From the NCBI GenBank assembly GCA_030403585.1, contig JAUEPE010000003.1, forward strand, positions 124,001 through 188,000: 64,000 nt of DNA, in the 5' to 3' direction. The stretch is from Frankia sp. RB7 (lineage in GTDB: Bacteria > Pseudomonadota > Alphaproteobacteria > Rhizobiales > Xanthobacteraceae). This document shows, in pieces, positions 45,960 through 64,000 of this stretch. Positions within the stretch are counted from its first letter, which is position 1, and each line of letters begins with the position of its first letter. Under the pieces are notes generated by a model that saw only the letters and a program-made list of their open reading frames with translations, made no database searches and was not told where the DNA came from. The position numbers and the translations under genes are program-made.

Positions 45960-46964
45960 TTATCCGACCGCTGCCATGTAGAGCTGCGCATCGAAATAGT
46001 CCGACGCGTGCATCGCGCCGGTGACGCCGGCATCCATCATGAAGAAGTCGCTGACCTGCTGCAACCATTTCACTACGGTGCCATCGGCATAGAGCCGCCG
46101 CCATTCGCGCGCGGAGTAGAGTTTTTGCGCCTTGAAGGCTTCAGTGATGTCGGCGGGGCGCGACGGCCTGTAGTGAGCCTGCAGCGCCTCCGCGGCAGCT
46201 GCGGGATTGCGCACCATGTGGTCGTTCGCGTCGATCCAGCCGCGAATGATCCGGCTCAGTACGTCCCTGTTCCCCGCATAATAGTCCGTCCGCGCGGCCC
46301 AGCCGCCAAGCACGGCGGATTGCGGATAGAAGGCAGATGCATCCACCAGCTTCACGGCGTCGGGCAGCGCCTCGCGCACGGCGACATTGAATGGCACCCA
46401 GAGCGCGACGGCCGGCACCTCGCCGGCGATGAACGACTTGACGGCATCAGGCATGCTGGCGTTGACGATCTCCACCTCGGACGTGGCGATGTTGTTGGCC
46501 CGCAGCGCCCGGTCGAGGAAGATATGCGCCGTCGTCTTCATGGTCGTCGCGATCCGCTTGCCCCTGAGGTCGGCGAGCTTGTTGACCCCGAGCGAGGGCC
46601 GGACCCAGAGCTGCGCGGTCGCGACCTCGATGTCGTTGATGAGAAAGCCGCGGCCGCGGCCGAGCGCCAGATAGTTGGAGATGACGCCGCCCGCCGAGGC
46701 GACGTCGAGCTCGCCCCGCATCATCGCCTCGAACACTTCGGGGCCGGTGTTGAACGCGTGCAGCTCGAAATCGATGCCCTCGCGGTCGAATGAGCCGCGG
46801 TCGAGCCCGGTCCAGATGTGTCCGTCGACCGCAACCACGTGGAGATAGCCGAGCCGGACTTTTCTGCGGGCCTGTGCGACGGCAGGGGCCCCGAACGCCG
46901 AGGCGGCCGCCAGCGCCGCGCCGCTACGCAGCAATCGCCGGCGGCTGACGAGGCGGGCGCTCAT
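45960..46964 (-). CDS. ABC-type substrate-binding protein (SsuA/NMT1-like)
   Basis: A 334-residue periplasmic binding protein with a twin-arginine-like signal (VSRRRLLRSGAALAAASAFG, cleavage after AQA). Mature landmarks: KVRLGYLHVVAVDGHIWTGL, the DIEVATAQLWVRPS segment and KLADLRGKRIATTMKTTAHIFLD. No permease or ATPase follows, so the partner is elsewhere or the protein acts as a sensor. ATG 46964 overlaps the cyclase stop by four bases, so both are translated together. It is the last gene of the 18-kb minus-strand block. Confidence 0.83.
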   Translation of the reverse strand: MSARLVSRRRLLRSGAALAAASAFGAPAVAQARRKVRLGYLHVVAVDGHIWTGLDRGSFDREGIDFELHAFNTGPEVFEAMMRGELDVASAGGVISNYLALGRGRGFLINDIEVATAQLWVRPSLGVNKLADLRGKRIATTMKTTAHIFLDRALRANNIATSEVEIVNASMPDAVKSFIAGEVPAVALWVPFNVAVREALPDAVKLVDASAFYPQSAVLGGWAARTDYYAGNRDVLSRIIRGWIDANDHMVRNPAAAAEALQAHYRPSRPADITEAFKAQKLYSAREWRRLYADGTVVKWLQQVSDFFMMDAGVTGAMHASDYFDAQLYMAAVG

Positions 46965-49063
46965 GCCGCTGCTCCCGCATTCGGGCCTGCGCCGCGGAAA
47001 CGCTGGGCGTGAATCTGCGCGACGCCGTCCTTGGGATAGTCGTGCAGGAAGCCGGAGAGCCGGACCAGCGTCGTGTCGGCCCCGCCATCCTGCGCGATCG
47101 CCGCAAAAACCTCGTCCCAGCGTTGGCACATGATGATCTCGGCCTCGCCGGCCTGCGCCAGTTCGCCGCGCAGCTCGCTGACGTCGATCGGCTCGGCAAA
47201 TCCCTTCGGCGTGATGCTGTCGACGCTGCGGAACAGGAACGCATGGTTCACGCGCGCACGCACTGTGGCACTGACCAGCACGCGCGTGCCGTAGTTCTTG
47301 TTGAGGCCCTCCAGCCGCGAGGCCAGGTTCACGGTGGCGCCGAGCGCGGTGTAGTTCATCCGGTCGCTGGAGCCGACATTGCCGACCACGGCGTCGCCGA
47401 CATGCAGGCCGTACCGCGTGTCGTAAGGCGGCCAGCCCTCGCGCCGAAACTCCTTGTTGAGAGCCTCGTTCGCCGCAAGGCAGGCGAGAACCGCGCGGCA
47501 GGCGTTGACGGTATGATCGGGGTCGTCCGCGGGCGCATTCCAGAGCGCCATCACGGCATCGCCGATATATTTGTCGACCGTGCCCTGGTGCCGCATGATC
47601 TCGTCCGAGAGCGCCGCGAAATAGCGTGAGGTGAAAATCATCACCTGCGACGGGTCGGCCCGCTCGGTCTTGGCGGTGAAGTCGGCGACATCCGTAAACA
47701 GCACCGTGACCTCGCGCCTTGAGCCGCCGAGGCGGAGCGCCGAGCCGGTCTCGATCAGCTGCCGCACGATCGGGCGCGGAATGAAGCTGGCAAAGCTGCT
47801 GACCACGCTGCGCATGGTGAAAACCGAGCGGCCAAGCTCCTCGATCTCGGCAATGGCAGAGTGGATGCGCGGCCGTTCCGCGATGTCGAAGCGCTGGATC
47901 GCGTCGGTCTCCTCGACCAGCTTGCGCAGCGGCTCTGCCATCCGCGAGCCCAGCCAGAACGCGAACGGCAGCGTGGCGCCGACGAAGGCCAGCGCCAGCG
48001 CGAACAGCGTGCGGCGCTCGTTGATGATCCGGGCGTAGAATTCGTCGAGTGGGGCGACCAGAGCGAGCCGGACATTGGCCGAGCCGGTCGTATCGAGCCG
48101 GTGGACCGCCGCGACATAGGTCCGGCCCGCGGCATCGTCGAAGAATTGCTGTGCCGGACCGCCCTCGCGCCATGAGCGGATGATCGGGACCAGCGCGGGC
48201 AGCTTGAGCGCACCAATTTGCGGCAGGTCGTCCTGCCGCTCCGGGATATCAGCCATCAGGCGGGTCATCTCGGGATGATCGACGATGTGCTCGGCATCGT
48301 TGAACAGGAAGGCGAGCCCCGATTGGCCTAGCTTCTGCTCCGCCAGCATGGCCTCGAACCGGTTCAGCAGCAAGTCGCCGGCGACGACGCCGCGGCGGCC
48401 TTCCTTCAGCGGCGTCCGCAGCGTGTAGCCGGGCTCGCCCGTGGCGTAGAAGACGTAAGGCCCGGTCAGCAGCGTCTTGTCGTTCTTGAACGCCTCGACA
48501 TACCAGGGCCGCTGCCGCGGGTCGTAGCCGGTGGGGCCCGGGACTTCGGCGACCTGGATCAGGTTCTCCGACAGATATTGCGTGACCGGCGCGGCTCCTG
48601 CCGTGCGCGAAATCACGACCAGCCGGAATGCCGCATCCTGATCGACCTTCAGGTCCGCGCGAAACGCCGGCTTGGCGCGGTCGATCACGTCCATCTCGAT
48701 GAACGAGCCGTCCTCGTAACCGACATAGAGATTGAACAGCTGCGGGTTGTTGCGCAGCATCGCCGCCATCAGGCTGTACAGCCGCGCATTGTCGGCGATG
48801 TCGGCTTCCTGGATCGGCGGCAGGGCGGACAGGATGTCGAGATTGTCGCGCACATTCTTGAACTGCTCGTCGACGTGGTCGGCACCTAACTGCGCCACCT
48901 TCTCGATGAAGCCGCTCGCCGCCGTCCGCGTGATCGAGGTCACGCGCTCGAAGCTGAGATAGACCAGGGTCAGGCCCACGAGCAGCACGACGCCCATGAA
49001 CACCGTGATGATCGATGTCTGGAAGCCGATGCGAAAGTGGCGCTTGGTCCGGTCTCCGTCCAT
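46961..49063 (-). CDS. Cache-sensor class III adenylate/guanylate cyclase
   Basis: A 700-residue membrane protein. TM1 at about residues 15-37, an extracytoplasmic Cache-type sensor (about 50-340, including PWYVEAFKNDKTLLTGPYVFY), TM2 at about 347-370, a HAMP-like linker and a class III cyclase domain at about 440-620. Catalytic landmarks: VTVLFTDVADFTAKTE and VDKYIGDAVMALWNAP (metal Asp residues), then MNYTALGATVNLASRLEGL with the transition-state Asn and Arg. It should make cAMP in response to a small molecule in the periplasm. It overlaps the SBP gene and is 22 bases after the SphA-like gene. Confidence 0.9.
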   Translation of the reverse strand: MDGDRTKRHFRIGFQTSIITVFMGVVLLVGLTLVYLSFERVTSITRTAASGFIEKVAQLGADHVDEQFKNVRDNLDILSALPPIQEADIADNARLYSLMAAMLRNNPQLFNLYVGYEDGSFIEMDVIDRAKPAFRADLKVDQDAAFRLVVISRTAGAAPVTQYLSENLIQVAEVPGPTGYDPRQRPWYVEAFKNDKTLLTGPYVFYATGEPGYTLRTPLKEGRRGVVAGDLLLNRFEAMLAEQKLGQSGLAFLFNDAEHIVDHPEMTRLMADIPERQDDLPQIGALKLPALVPIIRSWREGGPAQQFFDDAAGRTYVAAVHRLDTTGSANVRLALVAPLDEFYARIINERRTLFALALAFVGATLPFAFWLGSRMAEPLRKLVEETDAIQRFDIAERPRIHSAIAEIEELGRSVFTMRSVVSSFASFIPRPIVRQLIETGSALRLGGSRREVTVLFTDVADFTAKTERADPSQVMIFTSRYFAALSDEIMRHQGTVDKYIGDAVMALWNAPADDPDHTVNACRAVLACLAANEALNKEFRREGWPPYDTRYGLHVGDAVVGNVGSSDRMNYTALGATVNLASRLEGLNKNYGTRVLVSATVRARVNHAFLFRSVDSITPKGFAEPIDVSELRGELAQAGEAEIIMCQRWDEVFAAIAQDGGADTTLVRLSGFLHDYPKDGVAQIHAQRFRGAGPNAGAAA

Positions 49064-49085
49064 TGGAGTGTCCTGAATGCCTCCT

Positions 49086-50114
49086 CTAATATTTGCGCAC
49101 GATCGGCTTAGCGGACGCCGGCTCCGGCGCCGCGGGCGAGATCGCGAATGTGACCCAGGTGTTCCAGCCAGATGGGCGGTTCTCTGCTGCGAACTCCCAA
49201 TAGCCCTTCAGGTTGAGATAGCCCTGCATGTCACCGACCGGAAACAGGAAGCCGGCCTGCGGCCCGACGCCGGCAACACGCGAACGGAAGCCGCCAAGCG
49301 CCGGCGGTGCCCCAAAATCGTCAGTCACCTGCTGGAAGTAGTAGCCGACCAGCCCGAGCTGAACCTGCTTGGTGACGAAATGCGAGGCGCCCCAGTCGAG
49401 ATGGAAGTCCATTCCGTTCTGGTACTGCGTGTCGGTGTTCTTGAAATTGTAGGTGAGGCCCGCGACCCAGGAGAATTCGTTGCCGGTCTGCGGATTGAAG
49501 TAGGTGTAGCCGCCGCCGAAATCGATCGCGCCGTGTCCGATGCCGAGATTGGCAAGCCGCACCGGATCATAAGCGCCGATGGGAATGTCGCCCATGCCGT
49601 AGACCATGAGATTGTTGACGCCCATGTTCCACTTCAGCGCGACCTGCGGGATGATATCGCCGAACGCGACGAGGTCCTGCGTGCGATTGACCCCGATGGT
49701 GTTGCCGAGCGGTCCGGTCAGCGACAGCGCCGCTGTGGCTTCATTCCTGCCGGCGACACCCAGCACGCTGACGGAGAGTTGCGCGCCCAGCACCGGTGTG
49801 GCGAACACGTAGCTCGGCCCGAAGAAGGCGAGGTCGCCCTTGCCGCTGATGCCGACATCGACGCGTCCACCGCGCGGAAACTGCTGGCCCGCGCCAGAGC
49901 TGACGGTGGTGTGATAGTACACCGTTGCCCATGACCACCCCGGCGTGCCGGGCGCTGCGGCGAGGCTGCCGAAATTACCCGGCAGCCAGAAGCTGATGCC
50001 GCCTTCGTCGGCGCTCGCGGGCTGCGCCGCGAACGCCGTTACCGCCAGCACTGCCGTAAGCGCGCCTTTTCCAAACTGTCCCATCATGTCGTATGTCCCC
50101 ATCGTCTTCTTCAT
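49086..50114 (-). CDS. SphA/phenol-degradation MetA-like outer-membrane protein
   Basis: A 342-residue protein with a signal peptide (cleavage after AAQPASA) and a beta-barrel-like mature part with many aromatic-ended strands, e.g. DFGGGYTYFNPQTGNEFSW, ending PIVRKY. Members of the PF13557 family occur next to degradation clusters and are thought to be uptake channels for hydrophobic or aromatic compounds. The start at 50114 (MKKTMGTYDMM) fits the signal peptide; a longer frame runs into the HlyD gene. It is 8 bases downstream of the HlyD-type gene. The solute is unknown. Confidence 0.78.
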   Translation of the reverse strand: MKKTMGTYDMMGQFGKGALTAVLAVTAFAAQPASADEGGISFWLPGNFGSLAAAPGTPGWSWATVYYHTTVSSGAGQQFPRGGRVDVGISGKGDLAFFGPSYVFATPVLGAQLSVSVLGVAGRNEATAALSLTGPLGNTIGVNRTQDLVAFGDIIPQVALKWNMGVNNLMVYGMGDIPIGAYDPVRLANLGIGHGAIDFGGGYTYFNPQTGNEFSWVAGLTYNFKNTDTQYQNGMDFHLDWGASHFVTKQVQLGLVGYYFQQVTDDFGAPPALGGFRSRVAGVGPQAGFLFPVGDMQGYLNLKGYWEFAAENRPSGWNTWVTFAISPAAPEPASAKPIVRKY

Positions 50115-50122
50115 CGTGCTCT

Positions 50123-51064
50123 TCAGAATGGATTGACGTAATTCAGGATCGCGACCTGCCGCAGGATCACGCGGCGGACGATATGTGTCGGCTTGACCCG
50201 ATCGGTGTAGATCGCAGCGGTGCCGGCACTGCCGGCCGGCAGGCGCCTGGCGAATTCGGCGTCGTCGAGCCTGACGCGGACGATGAAGGGCGCCGCCTCG
50301 ATCGCGCTCGGCATCACGGCCGTGCCCGACGTCTGGGTCTGCCCCGGCGCGATCGCCTGCAGCACGCTCTCGACCTTGCCGGCAAGAATCTGCCCGGGCG
50401 CGAATTTGAAGGTGGCCTCGACCTCCTGGCCGGGCGCGACGTAGCGCGCGTCGATCTGGTTGATCTCGACGCCGATGATGGTCGAGGAGGTGTCGATGAA
50501 GGCCATCACCGGCGACAGCGGCAAATTGGCGACGCGGGCGCCCTTGCGCAGCGAGAGGTTGGTGACATAGCCGTCGGCCGGTGCTCGCACGATGGTCTTG
50601 TCGAGATTCCACTGCGCGGCCTCGAGCTGACCGGAGAGCTGGTCGGCCTCCGATTGCCGTTGCTCGACGTCGAAGCCGCGGCCGGCGTCACGCTCGTAGA
50701 GCTGCGTCATCTGGCCGAGGCGCGTCTTGGCGAGCTTGAACTGGGCGTCGATCGCCTTCACCTGCGCCGCGTAGGGTGTCGGGTCGATCTTGAACAACAC
50801 GTCGCCGGACTTCAGCGGCGCGTTGGCGACAACAGGAACATCCACCACTTCGCCGGCGACATCGGGCACGATCGAGACCGCGTTGCGCACGACCAGCGCA
50901 TTGCCCTGCGGCGCGCCCCATCCCATCGGAACCAGCAGCCCGAACAGCACCAGCACCATGACGATCGCAGGCGAGGCTTTCCAGAACAGGTTGAAGCGCA
51001 CGATGTTGAAGTGCACCAGCAGGAAAAGCAGCACCAGATAGATGTTGATGATGGCGACACCCAT
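50123..51064 (-). CDS. HlyD/EmrA-type membrane fusion protein (YiaV/YibH-like)
   Basis: A 313-residue periplasmic adaptor anchored by a TM near the N-terminus (NLFWKASPAIVMVLVLFGLL), with biotinyl-lipoyl-like halves (VPDVAGEVVDVPVV and TIVRAPADGYVTNLSLRKGARV) around a helical hairpin (AAQVKAIDAQFKLAKTRLGQM). Pairing with a DUF3302 protein is the E. coli YiaV-YiaW/YibH-YibI arrangement, function unknown. The start overlaps the DUF3302 stop (TGATG); a GTG at 51067 is an alternative. No dedicated efflux pump gene is beside it. Confidence 0.86.
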   Translation of the reverse strand: MGVAIINIYLVLLFLLVHFNIVRFNLFWKASPAIVMVLVLFGLLVPMGWGAPQGNALVVRNAVSIVPDVAGEVVDVPVVANAPLKSGDVLFKIDPTPYAAQVKAIDAQFKLAKTRLGQMTQLYERDAGRGFDVEQRQSEADQLSGQLEAAQWNLDKTIVRAPADGYVTNLSLRKGARVANLPLSPVMAFIDTSSTIIGVEINQIDARYVAPGQEVEATFKFAPGQILAGKVESVLQAIAPGQTQTSGTAVMPSAIEAAPFIVRVRLDDAEFARRLPAGSAGTAAIYTDRVKPTHIVRRVILRQVAILNYVNPF

Positions 51065-51303
51065 CACGCATCTCCGGCTTTACGCGAGGGGACGTCGAGA
51101 TAGGCCCAGATGAAGGCGAGGGGCCACAGCGCGAAGCCGAAGAACAGCGTGATCCAGCCGGCGACCGTCACGGCCTGCGCATGAGGATGGCCGCGCGATT
51201 TCGCGATATGCCCGGGCAGCCAGCCGGCGATGCAGACCACGCCGATCGCGCTGGCAAGCAGGATCATCAGCACGATCCAGGCGAAGATGTCATAGCCGCT
51301 CAT
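51064..51303 (-). CDS. DUF3302 inner-membrane protein (YiaW-like)
   Basis: A 79-residue protein with two helices (about residues 8-30 and 46-67), matching DUF3302: DIFAWIVLMILLASAIGVV, then LPGHIAKSRGHPHAQAVTVAGWITLFFG and WPLAFIWAYLD. Such proteins always pair with a YiaV-type fusion protein and may anchor it. The gene overlaps the HlyD-type start and lies ten bases after the DUF1254 gene, so it is part of the same transcript. Confidence 0.86.
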   Translation of the reverse strand: MSGYDIFAWIVLMILLASAIGVVCIAGWLPGHIAKSRGHPHAQAVTVAGWITLFFGFALWPLAFIWAYLDVPSRKAGDA

Positions 51304-51313
51304 GGTCGATCCT

Positions 51314-52348
51314 TTAGCTGGCCGGCTGCGGCTCCGGGAACTTCCATTTTCCGCTCTGAATTTCAGCGCGTGGGCGATAGAGTCGGACGGTGTAATTCCA
51401 GCCCTTCATGATCGGCAGACAGTTCGGAATCTTGCCGTCGCAGCCGCCAAACTGGACGGCGATCGAACCGTCGACGTTTTTCTTGCCGGTGATGCTGTTG
51501 ATGGAGTAGGCGTCGGATGGATTTTTCTCGTAATACCCCTCGGCATTGTAGAGGCTGACGGACCAGAACCCGTCGACCGGAACATGCTTCACATCGAGCT
51601 TGTAGACCGTCGTGCCGTCGTTCTTCGCCGGCGTGACGTTGAGATAGATCGCATCCCTGTCGGGATTGCCGCCCCACGCCGACGCTGATCCGATCAGATG
51701 ACGAATGGGATCGACTTCGGCCCTGGTGCCGAACGCCTTCTTGAAGTCAGGAATGGTCGAGCCGAGCACCAGGAGTGCGTCGCGTACTTTCTTCTGGCTG
51801 GCCTGGTCCCAATCCGGCGCCTCGAACGCACCGGCCGCCTTCTGGCTGACCTTGATGGCATCCTGGAGTCCGTGAACCTCCTCCACGTCCTTCGGGTTGG
51901 CCGGGTCGACCAGCGTCCGGATCGCGACGGCGACATAGCGCGTGCCGACCTTATCTTTCGAGAGCGTGTGGCTGCCCTTGCCGTAGACAACCTCCGGGAC
52001 GTAGTGATCCTCATTGATGATCTGCATCGACATGAAGCGCTTGCCGGTGTCAGGCAGCGTAATCGTCACAGGTCCGGCATCGAGATCGAACACGGCGGAC
52101 GAATACAGTGTGTCGCGGTTGAGCCGGATCACGGTCTGGTTGTCGATCCGGGCCGGCTCGCGGCGGTGCAGAAACTTTCCGATTGCGCCGCTGTCTTTTA
52201 ATATCCCGCGGAAATACAAATCGCTTTCCGCGCGGACGAAATTGTCGACGGTGACTGGAATTGTGCTGGCGGATGGCGACTGCGCCAAAGCGCCATTTGC
52301 GCAAAGCGTTCCCAGCAACACCCAAACGGAAGATCTGAAACTCGTCAT
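51314..52348 (-). CDS. DUF1254/DUF1214 exported protein
   Basis: A 344-residue exported protein with a signal peptide (MTSFRSSVWVLLGTLCANG, cleavage after ALAQ). The N-terminal half matches DUF1254 (PARIDNQTVIRLNRDTLYSSAV, then ITLPDTGKRFMSMQIINEDHY) and the C-terminal half DUF1214 (FWSVSLYNAEGYYEKNPSDAY). A pair of cysteines lies in FGGCDGKIPNCLP. The function of the family is unknown. Its start overlaps the stop of the next gene (ATGA). It is a shorter paralog of the protein at 52345-53709. Confidence 0.85.
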   Translation of the reverse strand: MTSFRSSVWVLLGTLCANGALAQSPSASTIPVTVDNFVRAESDLYFRGILKDSGAIGKFLHRREPARIDNQTVIRLNRDTLYSSAVFDLDAGPVTITLPDTGKRFMSMQIINEDHYVPEVVYGKGSHTLSKDKVGTRYVAVAIRTLVDPANPKDVEEVHGLQDAIKVSQKAAGAFEAPDWDQASQKKVRDALLVLGSTIPDFKKAFGTRAEVDPIRHLIGSASAWGGNPDRDAIYLNVTPAKNDGTTVYKLDVKHVPVDGFWSVSLYNAEGYYEKNPSDAYSINSITGKKNVDGSIAVQFGGCDGKIPNCLPIMKGWNYTVRLYRPRAEIQSGKWKFPEPQPAS

Positions 52349-53709
52349 TTCTCGGCCTCCAGCGGCGGCAATTTCCACGCTCCGGTCATCGCGGCCTTGC
52401 TTGGTCCGTACACTCGCGCGACAAGGCTGCATTTTGCGGCCGGGGCAGGCAGCCAATTGCTTTCCTTGTCTTTCCCCGGCGAGGCGTTGCTCACATAAAT
52501 CGTCAGCGAGCCGTCCTTGCCGTATTGGAGACCCTTGGTCCGGTCGCCGATCGAATAGCGATTGATCGGGTTGGCGTAGAGAAACCGGTCCGGGATCGTG
52601 TACATGGTCATGGACCAGAAGAATTTCGCCGGCGGCAGATTGGCCTTGGTGAAATGGACGATCGACGGCTTGCTCCCATCGCAGACGTAGCCGCCATACC
52701 AGGCTTCCTCGAGCGAGTTGCCGTACAGGCCTTTCATGGCCCCGACGTCGCGTTGCAGGTAGTTGGTCTTCAGTTGCGCGCGCGAACCGAACAGGCCGTT
52801 GGTGCTGAAGGTCTTGGCCGCCAGCGCATCGATCTCTGCCTGTCCCTCTTTCACGCCGGCATCGATTGCAGCCAGTGTCGCGGGATCGACCTTCGATGCA
52901 TCCCAAGGCTTGCCGGGTCCGATGCCGATTGTCTCGAAGCGCTTGCGGATCGCGGCCTCGCTGGGGACCGGCGGCTCGGCGAACTGCAGCAGGAAATTCA
53001 GGTAGCCGATGAAATCATGCGTGCGGGCCTTGGCCTTGTCATAGGGCGGAAATTCGATGGCCGGCGCGGCCGGCGGGGGCGGCTGCTTGAGGAATGAACT
53101 GAGCGGCTGAAGCTTGTATTGCGCCTGGATCGCCTTGACGTTCGGGACGTCCTCCGGTCCTTGCAGCGCGGTCCGGGTCAGTGTTCCCACGATCTCGGTT
53201 TCAGCCTTGAACACGTCCCTGATGCCGTCGGGCTTTTGTCCCCGCCATTTCGGTCCGGCGATCATGTAGCTGCCGGCGCCGAATCCCGTCGACCGCACGC
53301 CGATGTAGGCGAAGTTCTGCGTGAACAGGTCGATCCATTGCATCACGTAATAGCGATCCTTCGGGACCGTCGGAACGCTGACCACCATCGGTTCAGCGCG
53401 CAAGTCGAGCCACGCCCACGAGTAGGGCGTGTCGTTGTTCGGCGTCACGATGTCCTTGTTGTCAGGCGTGAACGGTTCCGAATAATGCCGGAACACGTTG
53501 AAGCCGCCGACATATCCATTGGCGCTCTTGTCGACCACCTGGGTACGCCAGGTCTGGTAACTCTCCATCATAGCGTAGGAATAGACATAGGCGTCCTTGG
53601 CGATCGCCTGTATCTCGCTCGGCGAGGTCGTCTGGGCTTGAGCCGCCGCGCCGGGCGTCAGCAGCAACGCTGAGCCAATGACTGCGGTAGCGATATGCCT
53701 CGACACCAT
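52345..53709 (-). CDS. DUF1254/DUF1214 exported protein, larger paralog
   Basis: A 454-residue exported protein with a signal peptide (IATAVIGSALLLTPGAAAQA). DUF1254 spans about residues 60-190 (DIVTPNNDTPYSWAWLDLRAE, YYVMQWIDLFTQNFAYIG) and DUF1214 about 335-440 (FFWSMTMYTIPDRFLYAN, YSIGDRTKGLQYGKDGSLTI). The middle is a longer helical insertion. ATG 53709 has AGGA about six bases upstream; ATG 53727 is an alternative. It overlaps the smaller paralog by four bases. No enzyme function is known for the family. Confidence 0.86.
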   Translation of the reverse strand: MVSRHIATAVIGSALLLTPGAAAQAQTTSPSEIQAIAKDAYVYSYAMMESYQTWRTQVVDKSANGYVGGFNVFRHYSEPFTPDNKDIVTPNNDTPYSWAWLDLRAEPMVVSVPTVPKDRYYVMQWIDLFTQNFAYIGVRSTGFGAGSYMIAGPKWRGQKPDGIRDVFKAETEIVGTLTRTALQGPEDVPNVKAIQAQYKLQPLSSFLKQPPPPAAPAIEFPPYDKAKARTHDFIGYLNFLLQFAEPPVPSEAAIRKRFETIGIGPGKPWDASKVDPATLAAIDAGVKEGQAEIDALAAKTFSTNGLFGSRAQLKTNYLQRDVGAMKGLYGNSLEEAWYGGYVCDGSKPSIVHFTKANLPPAKFFWSMTMYTIPDRFLYANPINRYSIGDRTKGLQYGKDGSLTIYVSNASPGKDKESNWLPAPAAKCSLVARVYGPSKAAMTGAWKLPPLEAEK

Positions 53710-53726
53710 CACTGTCCTGCTCCCCA

Positions 53727-54236
53727 TCACTGGCAGTAGTCCCAGAATCCCTGGGTCCGGGACGGATCGGTGTAGTACCAGCACATCCCCGGCGCGGGCG
53801 CCGCGCCCGCCCAGGCTGCGGCCGTAGCGGCCGTCACGAAACCGATCGCCGCGCCGGCGGCAATGGCACCGCCTCGCGGCCAGTAATAGCGGCCGGGCCG
53901 CGCCCATGCCCCGCGGCCGGCCACGGCCGTGGTGCGACGAACCGCGACATTGCCGCGTGGTCCACGCACGACGGTGCCGCCGCGATAGGCCGCGCCGCGC
54001 GGGCCGACCGCTGCGCCGCCGCGATGGACCACGGCACCACCACGCGGCCCCACGGCCGCCCCGCCGCGGTGGCCGGCTGCGCGCACCTCGACGAGGTCGG
54101 ATGGCCCGGTTGCGCCCTGCTGGATTGCTGCCGGTTGAAGCGGCGCCGCTGATACCGTTCCGATCGGGAGAGAAACGCCGGTTGCCAGTGCCAGCAAGCA
54201 GGCCGTCAGCCTAAAAGTGCGGATGTGTTTGGACAT
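53727..54236 (-). CDS. Exported Gly/Arg/Ala-rich repeat protein
   Basis: A 169-residue protein with a signal peptide (MSKHIRTFRLTACLLALATG, cleavage near TVSAA). Residues about 54-105 are a repeat of units such as HRGGAAVGPRGG and HRGGAAVGPRGA, then a hydrophobic Ala/Gly-rich segment at about 123-145 and a C-terminal CWYYTDPSRTQGFWDYCQ with two Cys. It resembles small exported rhizobial proteins of unknown function. The start at 54236 has GGGAG about eight bases upstream. It lies in the sulfatase-DUF1254 operon, so an envelope role is likely. Confidence 0.7.
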   Translation of the reverse strand: MSKHIRTFRLTACLLALATGVSLPIGTVSAAPLQPAAIQQGATGPSDLVEVRAAGHRGGAAVGPRGGAVVHRGGAAVGPRGAAYRGGTVVRGPRGNVAVRRTTAVAGRGAWARPGRYYWPRGGAIAAGAAIGFVTAATAAAWAGAAPAPGMCWYYTDPSRTQGFWDYCQ

Positions 54237-54295
54237 GTTTCTGTCTCCCATTGCTCTTGCTTCGTTGATGAAGTGTGCTGCCGCGATTGTCCCGG

Positions 54296-55309: not shown

Positions 55310-55333
55310 GGCACTTGTCCTCCCTGTCCCCAA

Positions 55334-57013: not shown

Positions 57014-57095
57014 TCGACGTTCCTTTTTTTGCAAGGGTTGTTCGCGCTGGCTTCCGAGTCTTGCGTTCTGCTTGATCAGTCTCCGTAGGCTTCCT

Positions 57096-58496
57096 TCATC
57101 TGGCAGGCCTTCTGCCTCCATGGGCCGGAGCCTTCGAAGCCCCGACTGGGTTGAGGGTTTGAGGTAGACGCGCGCTGTCGCGGCGGTGGGTTCGCAGTCG
57201 CAACCTGCGGCGCGCGACGGTGATGTGGCGCAGCAGCTGGTGTGGTGACCAGCGCTGCGAACCGTGCTGTGTTGCGAACAATTCGTGCTCGATGGCGCCG
57301 ATCTGTCCTTCCAGGGCAGGATCGCACGCGACGCTCTTGAAGGCGCTGATCGTAGTCCGCGAGGACGTGGCCTCGAGATGCGGCAGCCAGTCCAGCAATG
57401 CGAAATACGCGGTGCTTGCGTCTCGATGGCGAACCGCACGGCGAAGCCGGTCGAACGCAAAGGCCTCGGATTGCAGATAGACCTCCCGCCGGCGGCGATA
57501 ATAATCCGCGGTTCGCCGCGTCATGCCGGGTGCGAACCAGCCAAGTGCGACGGCAACGATGGTCACGACCAGTACGGATAGCCAGTGATCCGCAACGAGG
57601 TCGACGAGGCCGTTCCACGTCCAACTCACGTCGGGGCCGTCGATAGGCGCCGCGCCTCGTGACGCCGGATCGGCCATCACCTTCAGCGGCACGGCATCGA
57701 GATGAACCCGCTCGACCTTGCCGTTGCCGACGTTCCACCAGCCGATATCGATTGCGGGCAGGGAATAGTCGCCCGGGCGTTCCAGCATATAGGTCGCGGA
57801 ATCGACGCGGGTCGAGGTCGCGACACCGGTGCGGCCTTCCGTCTTGTCCGCGAGGTCGGGTTGCGCGGGATAGAGTTTGAGACCGTCGATATCGGCGAAC
57901 GGCTGCGGGGGCAGCAGCATCGCCGGCGTCCCCTGGGCCGCGATCGTCACGATTCGCGTGACGGCATCGCCCGGCTTGAGCTGATCCGAGGAGCGCCTGA
58001 TCGTTTGCTCGACGTTCAGCCGGGTTGCCGACAGAAATGGCTGAAGCTCGGCCGCGGCATCCGGAATGAAGGCTTCAAACGAAACACGCGGCAGCACGAT
58101 ATCGAGTTCGCGCGTCGACGGAGGCTCGGCGGCATATTTGACGTGGACCTTCTGGTCCGAAACGGCGTAGGAGCCGGGCTCCTGCGGATAGATGGCATAT
58201 TCGAAGCGTACCCCCGCGTAGAACACGCCGTCCCGCTGCTCGTTGGTGTTGACGCTCTGCAATTGCCGGGTCACGGCATTACGCAGCTGGAAGTCGGGCA
58301 ATTCGGGCGGCGACGTCATGTAGTTCGGCGCCAGCACGACGATGTGGAGTGTCGCCTGCTGCCCGACGACCACGCGTGGCGGATCGATGGTCACCTGCAC
58401 AGTCGGCTCGGACGTGACAGGCAGTTGCGCCCGCCCATCTTGCGATGGCAGCGCGACCGCGGGCAGCAAGGCGATGGCAGCGAGCCAATGTCTCAT
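57096..58496 (-). CDS. BatD-like membrane protein
   Basis: A 466-residue protein with a signal peptide (cleavage near GRAQ) and extracytoplasmic Ig-like domains containing PTVQVTIDPPRVVVGQQATL and the repeat-like TRELDIVLPRVSFEAF. A TM at about residues 305-325 (WLSVLVVTIVAVALGWFAP) leads to a cytoplasmic tail of about 140 residues (YYRRRREVYLQSEAFAFDRLRRAVRH). It corresponds to BatD of Bat/aerotolerance operons, which form a MoxR-VWA membrane complex. It overlaps the upstream VWA/TPR gene by four bases and is followed, after 82 bases, by the sulfatase. Confidence 0.78.
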   Translation of the reverse strand: MRHWLAAIALLPAVALPSQDGRAQLPVTSEPTVQVTIDPPRVVVGQQATLHIVVLAPNYMTSPPELPDFQLRNAVTRQLQSVNTNEQRDGVFYAGVRFEYAIYPQEPGSYAVSDQKVHVKYAAEPPSTRELDIVLPRVSFEAFIPDAAAELQPFLSATRLNVEQTIRRSSDQLKPGDAVTRIVTIAAQGTPAMLLPPQPFADIDGLKLYPAQPDLADKTEGRTGVATSTRVDSATYMLERPGDYSLPAIDIGWWNVGNGKVERVHLDAVPLKVMADPASRGAAPIDGPDVSWTWNGLVDLVADHWLSVLVVTIVAVALGWFAPGMTRRTADYYRRRREVYLQSEAFAFDRLRRAVRHRDASTAYFALLDWLPHLEATSSRTTISAFKSVACDPALEGQIGAIEHELFATQHGSQRWSPHQLLRHITVARRRLRLRTHRRDSARLPQTLNPVGASKAPAHGGRRPAR

Positions 58497-60016
58497 GGCG
58501 ATGCTCCCGCTTGCGCCGGCGCGGCCGCCTGGATTGCGAATTTCAGCTTGAGGAAGTCTGCGGGCGAGGTCTGGACCTGGCGCATCCAGGCTTCGGCCGC
58601 GCCTGCGGTGGTGACGTCCTGCGGCGTGACCTTGATCGTCTTGCCGCCTTTCTGCTTGGGGTCGACGCGCATCTCGTCGGCCTTTTGGTCCGGCGGCGCG
58701 CCATCGTTCTGCTCCTGCTTGCGACGCATCGCTTCCTTGGCGTCCAGCGCGGCCTGCACGATGGCGCGATTGGTCTTGGCGGCAAGATTGCCCGGCTGAA
58801 CCTTCAGCAAATCGTCATAGGCCTTGATCGCCTTTTCGAAGGCGTGGTTCTGGGCCTGGGCGTTGCCGAGTGCGAACGTTCCCTCAGGTGTCTCGACCTT
58901 CGCGAATTCCTGCGCAGCCACGATGAAATCGTACGCGCGGTATGCGGAGATGCCCCGCCACATCGGATCGGCGAACAGATTTGCCGCGGCACGATAGTCA
59001 CCGCGGTCGAACGCGAGCCGGCCCTGCTGGTCCGGCGTCAACCAAAGGCTGACGAAGCGCGATGTATGTTCCGCCCTCGATGGTTCCGGATGCGCCACGA
59101 TGAGGAGGGCAACGACCCACGCGACCGTGGTGCCGCGCCGAAACCAGAGCAGGCTCAGCAGCGCCAGCGGCGGCAGCAGCCAGAAACCTTCGTCTTGCCA
59201 CCGCGTACCGAACGCATCGCCCTCGGCGGACTGGAACCGCGTGTCGATCCGCCGCTCCAGCCGCAGAATGTCGCTGCCGTCGATGCTGACCCGGACGGCG
59301 TCGCTCCCGAGCGGCACGGACGCGGAGCCGGCGTTCATGGCGAGCATCACGACATTGTTCCGCCCGGCCGCCTGCCGGATCGCCGCGGCGTCGGCAGCGC
59401 CGAGCTCGTCCGCGACCAGCAGGATCGTCCCGGCGACCGGCTCGGTCGCGAGGGATTGTGCAGCCAGGGCAACCGCACCCGCCACGTTCCTGCCGTCTGA
59501 GGGCATCAATCCCGGCGTCAGCGCGGCGAGAAACGGCGCGATCACGGCGCGGTCGTCGGTCAGGGGCATGACCAGATGCGCCGTGCCGGCATAGGCGATC
59601 AGCCCGGTCCTGGCGCCGGCGCGCGCCGCAAGAAGATCGCCGATCTTCTGCTTGGCGCGTTCGAGGCGCGAGGGCGCGACGTCGCTCTCGCTCATCGACG
59701 ACCCGACCGCGAGCGCGATCATCAGAGGCGCCTTGTCCTCGACGAAGGGCGGCAGCTCGCGCCGCCAGGTTGGGCCGGACAGCGCGATGATGCCGAGCGT
59801 CATGGCGGTTGCAACGAGATACAACGGATTGATGCTGCGCCCCCCGCCGGGCTGCACGATCAGATGGTCGAGAAGATGCGGCGCAATGACGCCGCCCCAT
59901 TGCGCGCGCACGCTGTGTCGCCACCGCAGAAGCACGACCGCGGCGGCAAGCGGGATCAATGCAACGAGCCACAGCGGACGCAGCAGGTGAAAGGATATGG
60001 TGGCGGCGTCATGCAT
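58493..60016 (-). CDS. BatB/C-like VWA membrane protein with TPR, degenerate MIDAS
   Basis: A 507-residue protein. TM helices at about 10-28 and 64-80 and near 290-315 surround a VWA domain (about 93-270). The metal site reads AVGSSMSESD, lacking the first Asp of DxSxS, and no clear MIDAS Thr is seen, so metal binding may be lost. C-terminal TPR repeats (from about 355, YRAAANLFADPMWRGISAYRAYDF, then AIKAYDDLLKVQPGNLAAKTN) and a Lys-rich linker follow. It thus looks like BatB fused to BatC. It overlaps BatA-like by eight bases and BatD-like by four. Confidence 0.8.
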   Translation of the reverse strand: MHDAATISFHLLRPLWLVALIPLAAAVVLLRWRHSVRAQWGGVIAPHLLDHLIVQPGGGRSINPLYLVATAMTLGIIALSGPTWRRELPPFVEDKAPLMIALAVGSSMSESDVAPSRLERAKQKIGDLLAARAGARTGLIAYAGTAHLVMPLTDDRAVIAPFLAALTPGLMPSDGRNVAGAVALAAQSLATEPVAGTILLVADELGAADAAAIRQAAGRNNVVMLAMNAGSASVPLGSDAVRVSIDGSDILRLERRIDTRFQSAEGDAFGTRWQDEGFWLLPPLALLSLLWFRRGTTVAWVVALLIVAHPEPSRAEHTSRFVSLWLTPDQQGRLAFDRGDYRAAANLFADPMWRGISAYRAYDFIVAAQEFAKVETPEGTFALGNAQAQNHAFEKAIKAYDDLLKVQPGNLAAKTNRAIVQAALDAKEAMRRKQEQNDGAPPDQKADEMRVDPKQKGGKTIKVTPQDVTTAGAAEAWMRQVQTSPADFLKLKFAIQAAAPAQAGASP

Positions 60017-61007
60017 GGCTGACAGCCTTCACCCGGCGCCATTCGCTTCCGAGCAGCAGCGCAAGCCACAGCAGCAGCGCGAGGATGACGGCTGCGCCCA
60101 ACGGCCATTGAAACAGTGGCAGCTTCGGCCGCCATGACAGCGTCTCCAGTTTCGCTGGCGCCAGCCGGTCGATATCGGCATAGATCGCCTGCAACTGCGC
60201 GCCGTCCTCGGCGCGAAAGAAATGACCGCCGGTCGTGCCTGCAACGGATTGCAGGACGCTGAGATCGACACGGTTCTCGCCGGTCGCCGCGGGATCGCCG
60301 ACGCCGATCGTGTAGACGGCGACATCGTTCTGCTGCGCGATATCGGCGGCATGTTCGGGCGGCACCCGGCTTGCCGTATCATTGCCGTCGGTCAGCAAGA
60401 TCAGGAGCTTCTGTTTCGCCGTGCTGGTCGCAAAGGTCTTGATGGCCAGCCCGATGGTGTCGCCGATCGCGGTCTGCTGGCCGGCCATCCCGACTGCGGT
60501 CTGGTCGAGCAATTGCTGCGCCGTCTGGAGATCCTGGGTGAATGGCACCTGGACATAGGCCCTGGTGCCGAACAGGATCAGCGCGACGCGGTCGCCCTTG
60601 CGGCGCGCGATGAAATCCTTGATGACGCGCTTGACCCCGTCGAGCCGCGTCAGGGTCGCCCCATCGGGCGTCTTGAAGTCGTGCTGATCCATCGATCCCG
60701 ATATGTCGATCGCCAGGATCAGATCACGCGCGGACACCTCTCGCGTCACGGGATCGCCGACCCATTGCGGCCTTGCGAGCGCCATGACCAGCAGGATCCA
60801 GATCGCGACCGCCACGATCATCTGCAAGGCGCGGCGCTCCAGCACCACGGCGCCCCGCTGCGGGGTCTGTCCAGTCGCGGCCGCCAGCCGCTCGAAGAAC
60901 GGCACCTGGACCGAAGCCTGCCGCGCGCGATAGGGCGGCAGCCACCACCACACCAAGATCGGCAGCGGCAGCAACAGGAACATCCATGGCCAGGCGAACT
61001 CAAGCAT
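60009..61007 (-). CDS. BatA-like VWA membrane protein
   Basis: A 332-residue protein with N-terminal helices (about 3-25 and 63-80) and a C-terminal helix (about 300-322), around a VWA domain with the intact MIDAS DISGSMDQHDF near residue 95, a conserved Thr in GQQTAIGDTIG and Asp in LLTDGND. VWA proteins of this type are clients or partners of MoxR ATPases. ATG 61007 is preferred (MLEFAWPWMF). It overlaps the DUF4381 gene by eight bases. Confidence 0.87.
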   Translation of the reverse strand: MLEFAWPWMFLLLPLPILVWWWLPPYRARQASVQVPFFERLAAATGQTPQRGAVVLERRALQMIVAVAIWILLVMALARPQWVGDPVTREVSARDLILAIDISGSMDQHDFKTPDGATLTRLDGVKRVIKDFIARRKGDRVALILFGTRAYVQVPFTQDLQTAQQLLDQTAVGMAGQQTAIGDTIGLAIKTFATSTAKQKLLILLTDGNDTASRVPPEHAADIAQQNDVAVYTIGVGDPAATGENRVDLSVLQSVAGTTGGHFFRAEDGAQLQAIYADIDRLAPAKLETLSWRPKLPLFQWPLGAAVILALLLWLALLLGSEWRRVKAVSHA

Positions 61008-61503
61008 GGTGCCCCCTGATCCAGCGACGGACGAGGCGGGAGAGTGATTGAATCTCGGCTTCGTTCGGCTCAATGGGCTGATAGGAGCCGCTGACCAGCA
61101 AGCGGCCTACTCCTCGCGAGAACTCCTGTCCGTCATAGGTACGATCGAGAAACGAAAGCCATGCCGGACCGGCGAGGGAGGCCACTTGCTCGCGGGAAAA
61201 GGCTGTAAGCGCAGTTCGTCGGACAAGCAGGGTCAGCCCCGTCAATAGCTGTTCGCGGCCAGACGAGTTTGTCTGTTCCATCGAACTCAACTCGGCAAGC
61301 GCCTCGCGCCGATAGCGGTTGACGCGCCGATAGCGCACCAGCCGCCATGCGGATGCGATCACGATCGTCAGAAGCAGCACAATCGCGATCCGCGATTCCC
61401 AAGTCTGGGGCCACAGACCCACCTCGTGCGGCAGCGAGATGTCGACCAGGCCGGCCACCGGATCGGTATCGACGGGGGGTGCTTGAGCCAAGAGTTCAGC
61501 CAA
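61000..61503 (-). CDS. DUF4381 membrane protein
   Basis: A 167-residue protein matching DUF4381, found in Bat/MoxR operons. TTG 61503 is the likely start: GGAGG lies seven bases upstream, and the resulting PLAELLAQAPPV N-terminus agrees with the family. It overlaps the DUF58 stop by eight bases. A TM lies at about residues 39-56 (SRIAIVLLLTIVIASAWRLV), and a cytoplasmic helical tail follows (REALAELSSMEQTN...LLVRRTALTAFSREQV). The ATG at 61542 would add 13 residues. Its role in the complex is unknown. Confidence 0.8.
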   Translation of the reverse strand: MAELLAQAPPVDTDPVAGLVDISLPHEVGLWPQTWESRIAIVLLLTIVIASAWRLVRYRRVNRYRREALAELSSMEQTNSSGREQLLTGLTLLVRRTALTAFSREQVASLAGPAWLSFLDRTYDGQEFSRGVGRLLVSGSYQPIEPNEAEIQSLSRLVRRWIRGHHA

Positions 61504-62476
61504 GGGTTGCCTCCGCTCCTCGGTGGCCGCCGCCGCGACCATGCCTGGCTGGCATCGCGCCAAGCAGGCGACGAAGTTGCGCTGCGGTCTCCTCGGCTGC
61601 GCTGAGCGGCAGCACGGGAACACCGAGTTCCTGCGTCAAGGCAAAGACGCCCTTCAACCGCTCCTCTGTCGCCTGTGAAATGTTCTTGCGCACGCTGTCG
61701 CGCCCGACTTCGAGCCTGATCTGTAGCTCGCCGTCAGTCACGGTCATGCTGGCAGAGGGGGGCAGGTCGCTTTGCAGGGGATCGTGGACCAGCAGGGCAA
61801 CGACGTCATTATGCTGTGCCATTGCGCCGATCATCTTGCGCGTCGCGTCGTCGGCGCCGTCGAAATCGCTGATGATGACCACGACCGCATCGTGCAGCGC
61901 GCGGCGCAGGGCATGCTCCAGCGCCGTGTTGAGCATGGCCGGTGCAGAGACGAGACCGCGGCCGACGCCCAACGCCTGGTTTTGCGCAACGATGGCCGAG
62001 AGCATCTGGAGCACAGTGGCGCGGCTGCGCCGCGCGCTGACCTCGACGAGATCGCGGTCACCGAAGATGATTGCCCCGACCCGGTCGCCGACACCAAGCA
62101 CCCGCCACGCGCCGATCGACGCAGCCTGTGCCGCGGTCACCGATTTCATCGCGAGCCGGCTGCCGAAGAACATTGACAGGCGCTGGTCGACCACGAGGAT
62201 CGTCTGCCGATCGCGCTCCTCGTTGAAAACCCGAATATGTGGTTTCTGGAGCCGCGCCGTCACTTTCCAGTCGATCGAACGGACGTCGTCGCCGGCGCGA
62301 TAGTCCCGGATTTCCTCGAAGTTGAGCCCGCGTCCGCGCATGCGCGAGGCGAAGCGACCGGACAACAGGCTGTGCACCGGCTGGCGCGGCAGGAACGACA
62401 CCTTACGTCCGCGATATTCGAGCGCGATCAGGTCGTCGAGACTGACATAGACACCGGGCGAGCTGGCTGATGTCAT
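61496..62476 (-). CDS. DUF58 VWA-like protein
   Basis: A 326-residue soluble protein. The N-terminal part carries the DUF58 signature GRGLNFEEIRDYRAGDDVRSIDWKVTARL, and the rest is a VWA-like fold with ILVVDQRLSMFFGS in the MIDAS position, where the first Asp is present but the Ser pattern is altered. DUF58 proteins always accompany MoxR ATPases. It starts seven bases after the moxR stop and overlaps the DUF4381 gene. A longer frame to 62500 adds eight residues. Confidence 0.89.
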   Translation of the reverse strand: MTSASSPGVYVSLDDLIALEYRGRKVSFLPRQPVHSLLSGRFASRMRGRGLNFEEIRDYRAGDDVRSIDWKVTARLQKPHIRVFNEERDRQTILVVDQRLSMFFGSRLAMKSVTAAQAASIGAWRVLGVGDRVGAIIFGDRDLVEVSARRSRATVLQMLSAIVAQNQALGVGRGLVSAPAMLNTALEHALRRALHDAVVVIISDFDGADDATRKMIGAMAQHNDVVALLVHDPLQSDLPPSASMTVTDGELQIRLEVGRDSVRKNISQATEERLKGVFALTQELGVPVLPLSAAEETAAQLRRLLGAMPARHGRGGGHRGAEATLG

Positions 62477-62483
62477 GACGGCC

Positions 62484-63518
62484 TCACGCTGCAGCGACAA
62501 GTTCAGTGATCTTGTCGATCACCTGGTCGGGCGTCACGCCCTGCGACACGGCCTCGTAGCTGAGGATCAAGCGATGCCGCAGGCAGTCGTGGATCACCGC
62601 GCGGATATGGTCGGGGGTCACGAACTCATATTCGTCAAGCCAGGCCCGTGCACGCGCGCAACGGTCGAGCGCGAGGCTGCCGCGCGGGCTGGCGCCGACC
62701 TGGATCCATTTGCCGAGCGGATCGCCGTAACGGCTCGGAAAGCGCGTCGCGTAGACGACGTCCACCATATATTTCTGGGCGAGGTCGGAGACGAAGATCC
62801 CGTCGATCTCGCTGCGCGCGTCCAGGACTGCTTGTTGCGGGATCGGCGGCAGCTCCGCGGCGTGATCCTTCGGCGTCTGCGCGTTCTCTGCGCGATTGAG
62901 CTTGATGATCTCGCCTTCGACGGCCTCGTCCGGGTAGGTGATGACGACATGCATCAGGAAGCGGTCGAGCTGGGCCTCCGGCAGCGCATAGGTGCCTTCC
63001 TGTTCGATCGGGTTCTCGGTCGCAAGCACCATGAACAGGTCCGGCATCTTGTAGGTTTTGCCGGCGACGGTGACCTGGCGCTCCTCCATCGCTTCGAGCA
63101 GTGCGGACTGCACCTTTGCCGGCGCGCGATTGATCTCGTCGGCGAGCACGAGGTTGGCGAAGATCGGTCCCTTCTGGAACTGAAACTGGCCGCCCTTGTC
63201 GGTCTGGACGTAGATCTCGGCGCCGGTCACGTCCGACGGCAGGAGATCAGGCGTGAATTGCACGCGCGACAGATCTGCTGCGAGATGCTTCGCCAGCGTC
63301 TTGACCGCGCGGGTCTTGGCAAGGCCCGGCAGGCTCTCGATCAGAAGATTGCCGTTGGCGAGCAGCCCGATCAGCATGCTCTCGACCAGATGATCCTGAC
63401 CGAGCACTGACCTTCCGATCCGTGTCTTGAGATCCAGCAGGACTTCGCGTGCGGACGACGTCCCGGCACCCTGAGACGCTGGAGCCGCCGTGAGTTTGCT
63501 TGGGCCTCCGTCTGGCAT
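62484..63518 (-). CDS. MoxR-family AAA+ ATPase
   Basis: A 344-residue MoxR ATPase. Walker A is ESLPGLAKTRAV near residue 62, Walker B LVLADEINRAPAKVQSALLEAMEE, and sensor ATENPIEQEGTYALPEAQLDRF. The C-terminal lid (from about 240) has VVYATRFPS and ASPRGSLALDRCARARAWL. MoxR proteins act as chaperones that remodel VWA-domain clients. The ATG at 63518 is chosen; an ATG at 63551 would extend it by 11 residues. It is separated by 99 bases from the upstream sulfatase gene. Confidence 0.92.
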   Translation of the reverse strand: MPDGGPSKLTAAPASQGAGTSSAREVLLDLKTRIGRSVLGQDHLVESMLIGLLANGNLLIESLPGLAKTRAVKTLAKHLAADLSRVQFTPDLLPSDVTGAEIYVQTDKGGQFQFQKGPIFANLVLADEINRAPAKVQSALLEAMEERQVTVAGKTYKMPDLFMVLATENPIEQEGTYALPEAQLDRFLMHVVITYPDEAVEGEIIKLNRAENAQTPKDHAAELPPIPQQAVLDARSEIDGIFVSDLAQKYMVDVVYATRFPSRYGDPLGKWIQVGASPRGSLALDRCARARAWLDEYEFVTPDHIRAVIHDCLRHRLILSYEAVSQGVTPDQVIDKITELVAAA

Positions 63519-63617
63519 GGAATTCTCACTCACATTCCGAGACGTTCGCATCCCGCGAACGTCGACTTGTTCACGACCACGCATGGCGGCGTGGCATTCA
63601 CGCAGGATCTCAGTGCC

Positions 63618-64000
63618 TCATTTGTTGGGATTGGCCTGGTAGATTTTCTCCATGGCGTCACCGATGGTGAAGCTCGCCGCCTTGGCACGCGGCGGGAAGT
63701 CCTTGAAGCTTTCCAGGTATTTCCCGACGACGGCCTGCGCCGGCACGATGAGGAACATGCGGTGTGCCGTCCAGTCGCCATAGTACGTGCTGGATGGGCC
63801 CCGTTCGAAAGGGTCCGAGCGCAGATTGTAGAGCATGGGGGCACGCAGCTTCGTGAACTGGCCTTGCCAGGGTCCCAGCGGGGTCTTCGGATCGACTTCG
63901 GCGTGCTGCTCCAGGAAGGTCACCTTCCAGTCGCGGAGGCGAATGGCCATCAGGTCGCCGTCGTCACTCCAGTACAGAAACTCCTGGCGTGGCGACTCCT
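63618..64000 (-). CDS. Sulfatase, C-terminal part, cut at the window edge
   Basis: An open frame entering from the right edge encodes the last 126 residues of a sulfatase. Landmarks shared with the sulfatase at 55334-57013: EFLYWSDDGDLMAIRLRDWK near the top, LYNLRSDPFERG, and the segment MFLIVPAQAVVGKYLESF. The catalytic Cys and the metal site are outside the window. The protein ends DAMEKIYQANPNK and stops at 63618. It is the likely first visible gene of the block. Confidence 0.82.
   Translation of the reverse strand, partial: ESPRQEFLYWSDDGDLMAIRLRDWKVTFLEQHAEVDPKTPLGPWQGQFTKLRAPMLYNLRSDPFERGPSSTYYGDWTAHRMFLIVPAQAVVGKYLESFKDFPPRAKAASFTIGDAMEKIYQANPNK

Follow-up and report, generated by a model that had tools for sequence, protein, structure and literature searches.

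MoxR–Bat gene sets recur beside one sulfatase subfamily in four phyla and may take part in sulfatase maturation

We analysed a stretch of 64,000 nucleotides from Frankia sp. RB7 (assembly GCA_030403585.1, contig JAUEPE010000003.1, positions 124,001 to 188,000; hereafter the window). Its last part, positions 45960-64000, holds 17 genes on the minus strand, among them genes for a MoxR ATPase and Bat (Bacteroides aerotolerance) proteins that stand between two sulfatase genes. By its gene content, this set is a Bat (MoxR–BatABD) module. We found that the genes from a formylglycine-generating enzyme (FGE) to a HAD hydrolase represent a kind of module that occurs repeatedly next to one sulfatase subfamily, with examples from four phyla (Pseudomonadota, Planctomycetota, Verrucomicrobiota and Desulfobacterota), and that the association of this group of modules with the subfamily is strong. 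By analogy with known maturation systems, we infer that MoxR–Bat proteins may mature sulfatases.

The original prediction described 17 minus-strand genes with short gaps and overlaps, including a complete MoxR–DUF58–DUF4381–BatA–BatB–BatD set between two exported sulfatases. The first description is borne out by the reading frames and by Pfam, and the second by Pfam matches over the cut-off. It had also noted that no FGE is encoded in the window; this is true, but an FGE gene belongs to the run about 1.3 kb outside of the window. The genes from FGE to HAD hydrolase are the following, where gene starts are our choice among the in-frame start codons:

65278-66312 (L013:5278-6312), outside the window, 10 bp upstream of sulfatase B: FGE gene; PF03781.
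63618-64000, minus strand: 3' part of sulfatase B; the whole gene (L013:3618-5267) reaches position 65267; Sulfatase_C.
62484-63584, minus strand: MoxR AAA+ ATPase (AAA_3); PF07726, 208.9 bits; Walker A and Walker B motifs.
61496-62500, minus strand: DUF58 protein; PF01882, 139.3 bits; no membrane segments found.
61000-61623, minus strand: DUF4381 protein; PF14316, 123.6 bits; one membrane segment.
60009-61073, minus strand: BatA-like VWA protein; PF00092, 90.8 bits; three membrane segments; DxSxS metal motif intact.
58493-60016, minus strand: BatB-like VWA protein with a TPR part; PF13519, 54.8 bits; metal motif degenerate in this copy.
57096-58496, minus strand: BatD-like protein; PF13584, 40.3 bits, and PF25607, 33 bits.
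55334-57013, minus strand: sulfatase A; PF00884, 159.9 bits; CTAGR motif and Tat-like signal.
54296-55333, minus strand: HAD hydrolase; PF12710, 48.1 bits; PDB 4ovy at 3.5e-121; signal-like N-terminus.

Bat modules are common: in a survey of 299 Pseudomonadota genomes, DUF4381 was found in 140. From this list we picked 54 regions (roughly one for each genus, and some additional copies), of which 52 entered a joint tree of MoxR, DUF58 and BatA. The remainder of its 100 rows comprises the module of the window (1), loci from a sulfatase search (12), DUF4381 matches from the same genus (6) and two further picks (10 and 19). Sulfatases guided the choice of the 12 rows from the sulfatase search and of most of the 10 picks, and the 19 came from sulfatase-holding genomes. 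Since most rows from outside the survey were thus picked via sulfatases, only the survey and 14 loci collected later are free of this selection. Loci were mapped with profiles built from the proteins of the window, and the neighbourhood seen spans about 10 kb on each side where the contig allows. Left out of the tree were L145, L169 and L215 (MoxR frame not found), L235 (the same locus as L085) and L208 (overlapping L209, whose sulfatase is in L208); L238-L257 are absent as well, having been collected once the tree was built.

One branch of the tree, with an SH-aLRT of 100, contains 55 modules. All 46 modules beside a subfamily sulfatase or an FGE fall within this branch, and none of the 45 modules outside has such a neighbour. 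The linkage label changes 7 times on the 100-row tree, compared to 33.4 times in shuffles, and it changes 7 times on each of the single-protein trees as well. In a careful tree of 80 thinned rows, the group is supported at 100/100 and was recovered in 200 of 200 bootstrap trees. When the survey sample is taken alone, a sulfatase is found at 12 of 14 group modules vs. none of 38 others (Fisher 4e-10). Furthermore, several genomes hold two copies, of which the group member has a sulfatase close by and the non-member has none (for example, L157/L156, L178/L177, L183/L184 and L141/L142). The association between MoxR and the sulfatases, which had been put forward as a hypothesis, is thereby upheld for one group of modules that is tied to the subfamily and to formylglycine maturases in four phyla. 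The idea that the link is confined to one genome is ruled out by the loci of the other genomes, and the idea that every Bat set adjoins sulfatases is ruled out by the 45 modules outside the group.

Physical distance was also considered. A DUF4381 gene and a subfamily sulfatase are both present in 22 of the 299 genomes, and at least 19 of the 37 DUF4381 copies listed lie within 10 kb of a sulfatase. From gene counts and genome sizes, 0.34 such cases would be expected, vs. the 19 observed among the copies listed; the proximity counts are lower bounds, with at most 12 and 4 candidates scored per genome. In the genus of the window and in Nitrobacter, sulfatases flank the Bat set on both sides in eight of nine loci; the ninth, L139, is cut off by the end of its contig, and L016 and L138 appear to be a single locus. 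Near relatives differ in which of the two sulfatases stands on which side of the Bat set (L016, L136 and L138 vs. L135, L137 and L021).

The group can also be recognized by signature residues, which we detected by simple and hence crude pattern matching. The signature [ST]DGxD in BatA is present in 55 of 55 members vs. 2 of 42 others, and E(G/S)LPG in MoxR in 53 of 55 members vs. none of 45 others, while DQR in DUF58 is found in at least 49 of the 55 members. BatA, DUF58 and MoxR of the window carry all three. In a later check, new loci with a DUF4381 match of at least 60 bits were collected from 119 Planctomycetota, 148 Desulfobacterota and 145 Verrucomicrobiota genomes, which yielded the 14 loci mentioned above. 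All five loci with the three signatures adjoin subfamily sulfatases (L238 and L254-L257), and none of the seven loci without the BatA signature is linked (L239, L246, L247, L248, L250, L252 and L253), of which L247, L250 and L252 are on contigs shorter than 15 kb. The signature-negative L247 shows DQR. L249 and L251 show the BatA signature; both are short stretches in which a MoxR frame and a sulfatase are absent. Five further Planctomycetota loci with weak DUF4381 (L240-L244) are all unlinked and none has all three signatures; single signature residues occur in L241, L242 and L243.

To describe the neighbours of the group, we counted partner genes at set thresholds in 54 group loci (excluding that of the window) and in 45 loci outside. 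Sulfatases were found in 43, the HAD hydrolase in 30, FGE in 19 and an anaerobic sulfatase maturase in 6 of the group loci; outside the group, each of the four was found in none at the thresholds used, with two FGE-fold matches (169 and 79 bits) under the threshold. The anaerobic maturase, a radical SAM enzyme, is present in L077, L162, L179, L192, L206 and L211, none of which also has FGE over the threshold; a tested example reaches 492 bits vs. the TIGR03942 cut-off of 349. Two other genes are worth recording beside these partners. A multihaem cytochrome with TPR repeats (L207:2181-4478 and ten others) occurs in 11 of the 54 group loci and also in the Bat-less sulfatase loci L075, L081 and L092. 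A fused MFS/spermidine-synthase-like protein (L157:523-3144 and eight others) occurs in 9 of the 54 and in none outside.

Both sulfatases of the window carry CTAGR, a motif of the C-x-P/A-x-R type, and a Tat-like signal. When sulfatase B is aligned to human arylsulfatase A, the formylglycine and metal-site residues match; the latter include residues which we take to be calcium ligands. Judged by PF00884, the CTAGR motif and, for sulfatase B, the metal-site residues, A and B belong to the S1 formylglycine sulfatases. The protein encoded upstream of sulfatase B matches PF03781 with 297.6 bits and the solved FGE 8aru with 282 bits, and the active-site cysteine pair is aligned; we looked for a signal peptide in this protein and found none. 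These matches indicate that it is an FGE, likely the activating enzyme of both sulfatases. The genome has 10 sulfatase-family places. In addition to the subfamily, the sulfatase profiles recover the four other true sulfatases of this genome for which a locus was analysed (90-447 bits); two weak proteins of the sulfatase family, L007 and L008, escape them.

Relatives of sulfatase B comprise at least 592 matches, and the best 80 of these, from several phyla, were taken as loci, some of them on short contigs. A Bat set is present in 12 of these 80. A sulfatase tree (FastTree) requires no fewer than 16 changes in Bat linkage, and thus the pairing has been renewed across different sulfatase lineages. 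With respect to export, a first rule was dropped because it called several Tat-like signals cytosolic. According to the rule that replaced it, which leaves 14 of 134 sulfatases unclassified, 50 of 52 classifiable Bat-linked sulfatases are exported vs. 46 of 68 others. By eye, we judged as exported also L071 and L178 (the two Bat-linked ones that fail the rule) and the Bat-unlinked L015, L070 and L093. Tat and Sec signals direct proteins to export, and the Bat-linked sulfatases have Tat-like as well as Sec-like signals, as seen by eye and from hydropathy. As the same module accompanies both kinds, a step that they share should come after export.

Which step this might be is suggested by comparison with mxaRSACKL. 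Methanol dehydrogenase, the client there, is an exported calcium enzyme. The ATPase, the DUF58 protein, two VWA proteins, the TPR protein and the membrane protein of this system match MoxR, DUF58, BatA, BatB (with its TPR part) and BatD. In profile comparison, MxaR, S, C, L, K and A are matched at 100, 98.4, 99.6, 94.3, 92.1 and 85.8%, respectively, and the TPR part of BatB, whose Pfam TPR match is weak and under the cut-off, matches MxaK. The two systems differ in their clients, methanol dehydrogenase not being a sulfatase, and their sequences are distant: on the MoxR profile, MoxR proteins from eight mxa loci score 163-201 bits vs. 415-542 bits for Bat modules. No match to MxaI was found in the genome of the window. 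Therefore, we do not file the module as mxa but only as possibly working like one; that it is a misnamed mxa cluster was rejected for this reason and for the distance to the eight mxa loci. As a separate observation, the Bat sets of L142, L143 and L193 are divergent and branch off deeply, their DUF4381 is weak, and the same three genomes have an MxaI gene elsewhere.

Other systems provide further comparisons. General Bat modules have MoxR, DUF58, BatA, BatB and BatD in identical order, whereas the sulfatase-linked group adjoins sulfatases and differs at the marker residues. NorQ–NorD, CbbQ–CbbO, RavA–ViaA and the CoxD/carbon monoxide dehydrogenase pair likewise involve an ATPase and a VWA protein on a particular enzyme, a likeness by description. 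MoxR–VWA pairs are described as acting on particular client enzymes (PMC12657314; for CoxD, PMC2997495). FGE and the anaerobic maturase make the catalytic aldehyde residue; MoxR–Bat would be a further component that is not homologous to them. The MoxR of the run matches the bpMoxR model (53.1 bits), but no beta-propeller, as in the ternary MoxR–VWA–beta-propeller (conflict) systems, was found in those of its genes that were scanned with Pfam.

The predicted topology fits a division of labour across the membrane. No membrane segment was found in MoxR. The DxSxS motif of BatA, which we take to be a metal motif, is intact in 55 of 55 group members, and charge balance (by the positive-inside rule) places the VWA domain of BatA outside the cytosol, with 28 of 41 members scorable. 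From the topology and signal predictions, FGE would therefore be active on the inner side of the membrane and the Bat set on the outer side. We propose that FGE would form formylglycine in the cytosol, after which Tat or Sec would export the sulfatase. MoxR and DUF58 would power the assembly that DUF4381, BatA, BatB and BatD form in the membrane. The VWA domain of BatA, which is predicted to be periplasmic and has its metal motif intact, would act on the sulfatase by opening or refolding it and by loading the catalytic calcium, as is credited to mxaRSACKL for methanol dehydrogenase. The calcium-loading proposal is made because of the part-by-part match to Mxa, the calcium insertion credited to mxaACKLD in one source (PMC11845868) and to MoxR–MoxC/L in another (PMC12657314), and the calcium need of sulfatases, calcium being described as essential in the S1 family (PMC10154612).

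We hold these proposals with different confidence. The module probably works on sulfatases of some kind, and we lean slightly towards maturation as its role. That the genes FGE–sulfatase–MoxR–DUF58–DUF4381–BatA–BatB–BatD–sulfatase–HAD make up a dedicated maturation line for predicted exported sulfatases has about even chances. Calcium loading, an argument from analogy, is our leading guess as to the activity and the least certain step, to be taken as tentative. More speculative again is the general view that an ATP-driven, transenvelope MoxR–Bat calcium loader would provide a third maturation step after export, and that Bat modules would generally be envelope metal loaders, each with its own clients.

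Several findings weigh against a role in sulfatase maturation. Nine group members have neither a sulfatase nor an FGE in view, and in the genome of one of them (L185, genome G296) the only sulfatase-family protein is weak, with 62 bits. A formylglycine maturase of either kind is present in only 25 of the 54 group loci. The original prediction suggested gene order in other genomes as a check; the pairing does recur within the group, but no such sulfatase adjoins the modules outside it, and in 68 of the 80 sulfatase loci (the best 80 of at least 592) no Bat set is found in the stretch seen, which agrees in part with the refuting outcome that the prediction had named. DUF4381 is under the cut-off in 20 of 46 searched genomes that hold such a sulfatase. 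From these two counts, it follows that many members of the subfamily mature without a Bat set. In addition, 8 of 30 sulfatase genomes in the survey have no DUF4381 match, and DUF4381 is found in only 7 of 36 genomes of the same genus. When kinship is allowed for, the association between export and Bat linkage is not significant. The likeness to mxa is uneven as well: BatB fits MxaC (98%) better than MxaL (94%), the match of BatD to MxaA is the weakest (86%), and DUF4381 has no Mxa counterpart.

The best of the alternative explanations is a sulfatase-specific chaperone for folding or assembly, which would remodel or tether the exported enzyme and insert no metal. The whole linkage evidence fits it equally, and one source credits CbbQ–CbbO with promoting a structural remodelling and not the insertion of metal (PMC12657314). 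We nevertheless consider it rather unlikely, as the closest part-by-part match is a calcium-insertion module and the client needs calcium, which counts by analogy only. The sulfatases and the Bat set could also be mere neighbours, if an envelope-stress Bat set were travelling in islands for sulfate-ester utilisation. The frequent occurrence of the subfamily without Bat and the group modules that stand alone would agree with this; by eye, we found no shared alternative client beside the stand-alone modules. Yet one deep group holds the link across four phyla, and in genomes with two Bat sets only the group copy is near a sulfatase, which makes mere neighbourhood improbable. That the HAD hydrolase or the DUF1254 proteins are the clients of the module, with the sulfatases as passengers, is very improbable: HAD is frequent at group loci (30 of 54 vs. 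0 of 45 outside), is found within the Bat genes in L071, L077 and L084, and, like DUF1254 in L161, occurs without a sulfatase in L224, but sulfatases are commoner (43 of 54), and of the 26 HAD-bearing loci among the 80 sulfatase loci 17 lack a Bat set, so that HAD (related to PDB 4ovy) seems to follow the sulfatase rather than Bat.

Apart from the genes discussed so far, the run contains the following:

53727-54299, minus strand: 190-aa protein; no Pfam family; profile matches in 4 of 54 group loci.
52345-53709, minus strand: DUF1254/DUF1214 protein, first copy; PF06863, 153.4 bits.
51314-52348, minus strand: DUF1254/DUF1214 protein, second copy; PF06863, 60.3 bits.
51064-51303, minus strand: DUF3302 protein; PF11742, 92.9 bits.
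50123-51067, minus strand: HlyD-type membrane-fusion protein; PF16576, 44.2 bits.
49086-50114, minus strand: SphA-like channel; PF13557, 149.7 bits; outside the conserved parts.
46961-49063, minus strand: dCache-domain nucleotide cyclase; PF00211, 61.7 bits, and PF02743, 49 bits; outside the conserved parts.
45960-46964, minus strand: NMT1-type binding protein; PF09084, 47.7 bits; outside the conserved parts.

All 17 genes were confirmed, and they make a run of 18 once the FGE gene is counted. Pfam confirms the named families, the gene at 53727-54299 being without one. Neighbouring genes overlap or are separated by gaps below about 100 bp. Overlaps of a few bases occur between NMT1 and cyclase, HlyD and DUF3302, the DUF1254 pair, the small gene and HAD, BatD and BatB, and BatB and BatA; the largest gap among the remaining neighbours is 82 bp (BatD to sulfatase A), and that between MoxR and sulfatase B is 33-99 bp, depending on the MoxR start used. 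Beyond the FGE gene lies an AraC-type regulator in divergent orientation. Nearly the whole run, from FGE through NMT1, is retained in L016 (B. jicamae). The uptake and sensing half, which had been described as part of one pathway, does not hold as a conserved unit: among the 54 group loci, 9 have DUF1254, 9 have HlyD, 4 have the SphA-like channel, 2 have the cyclase and 1 has the NMT1 protein. The transport, cyclase and binding-protein genes were thus rejected as core parts. DUF3302 had been read as part of a fusion protein; instead, it is encoded by a separate gene that overlaps the HlyD gene by 4 bp (50123-51303), an arrangement like that of yiaW–yiaV in E. coli.

Lastly, we consider what the finding would mean for Bat modules and for sulfatases. 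In a Leptospira study, the function of Bat is described as elusive (PMC3557215). We found no published link between MoxR–Bat and sulfatases in the open-licence literature searched; two papers there mention both BatA and sulfatase, but in passages that have nothing to do with each other. The tie between one group of modules and a single enzyme subfamily in four phyla supplies Bat modules with a client open to assay, and, if the inference is true, it would give the MoxR–Bat machinery its first client. In that case, FGE or the anaerobic maturase would not suffice for some exported sulfatases, with consequences for the heterologous expression of these enzymes and for our understanding of the bacterial use of sulfate esters and sulfated glycans.

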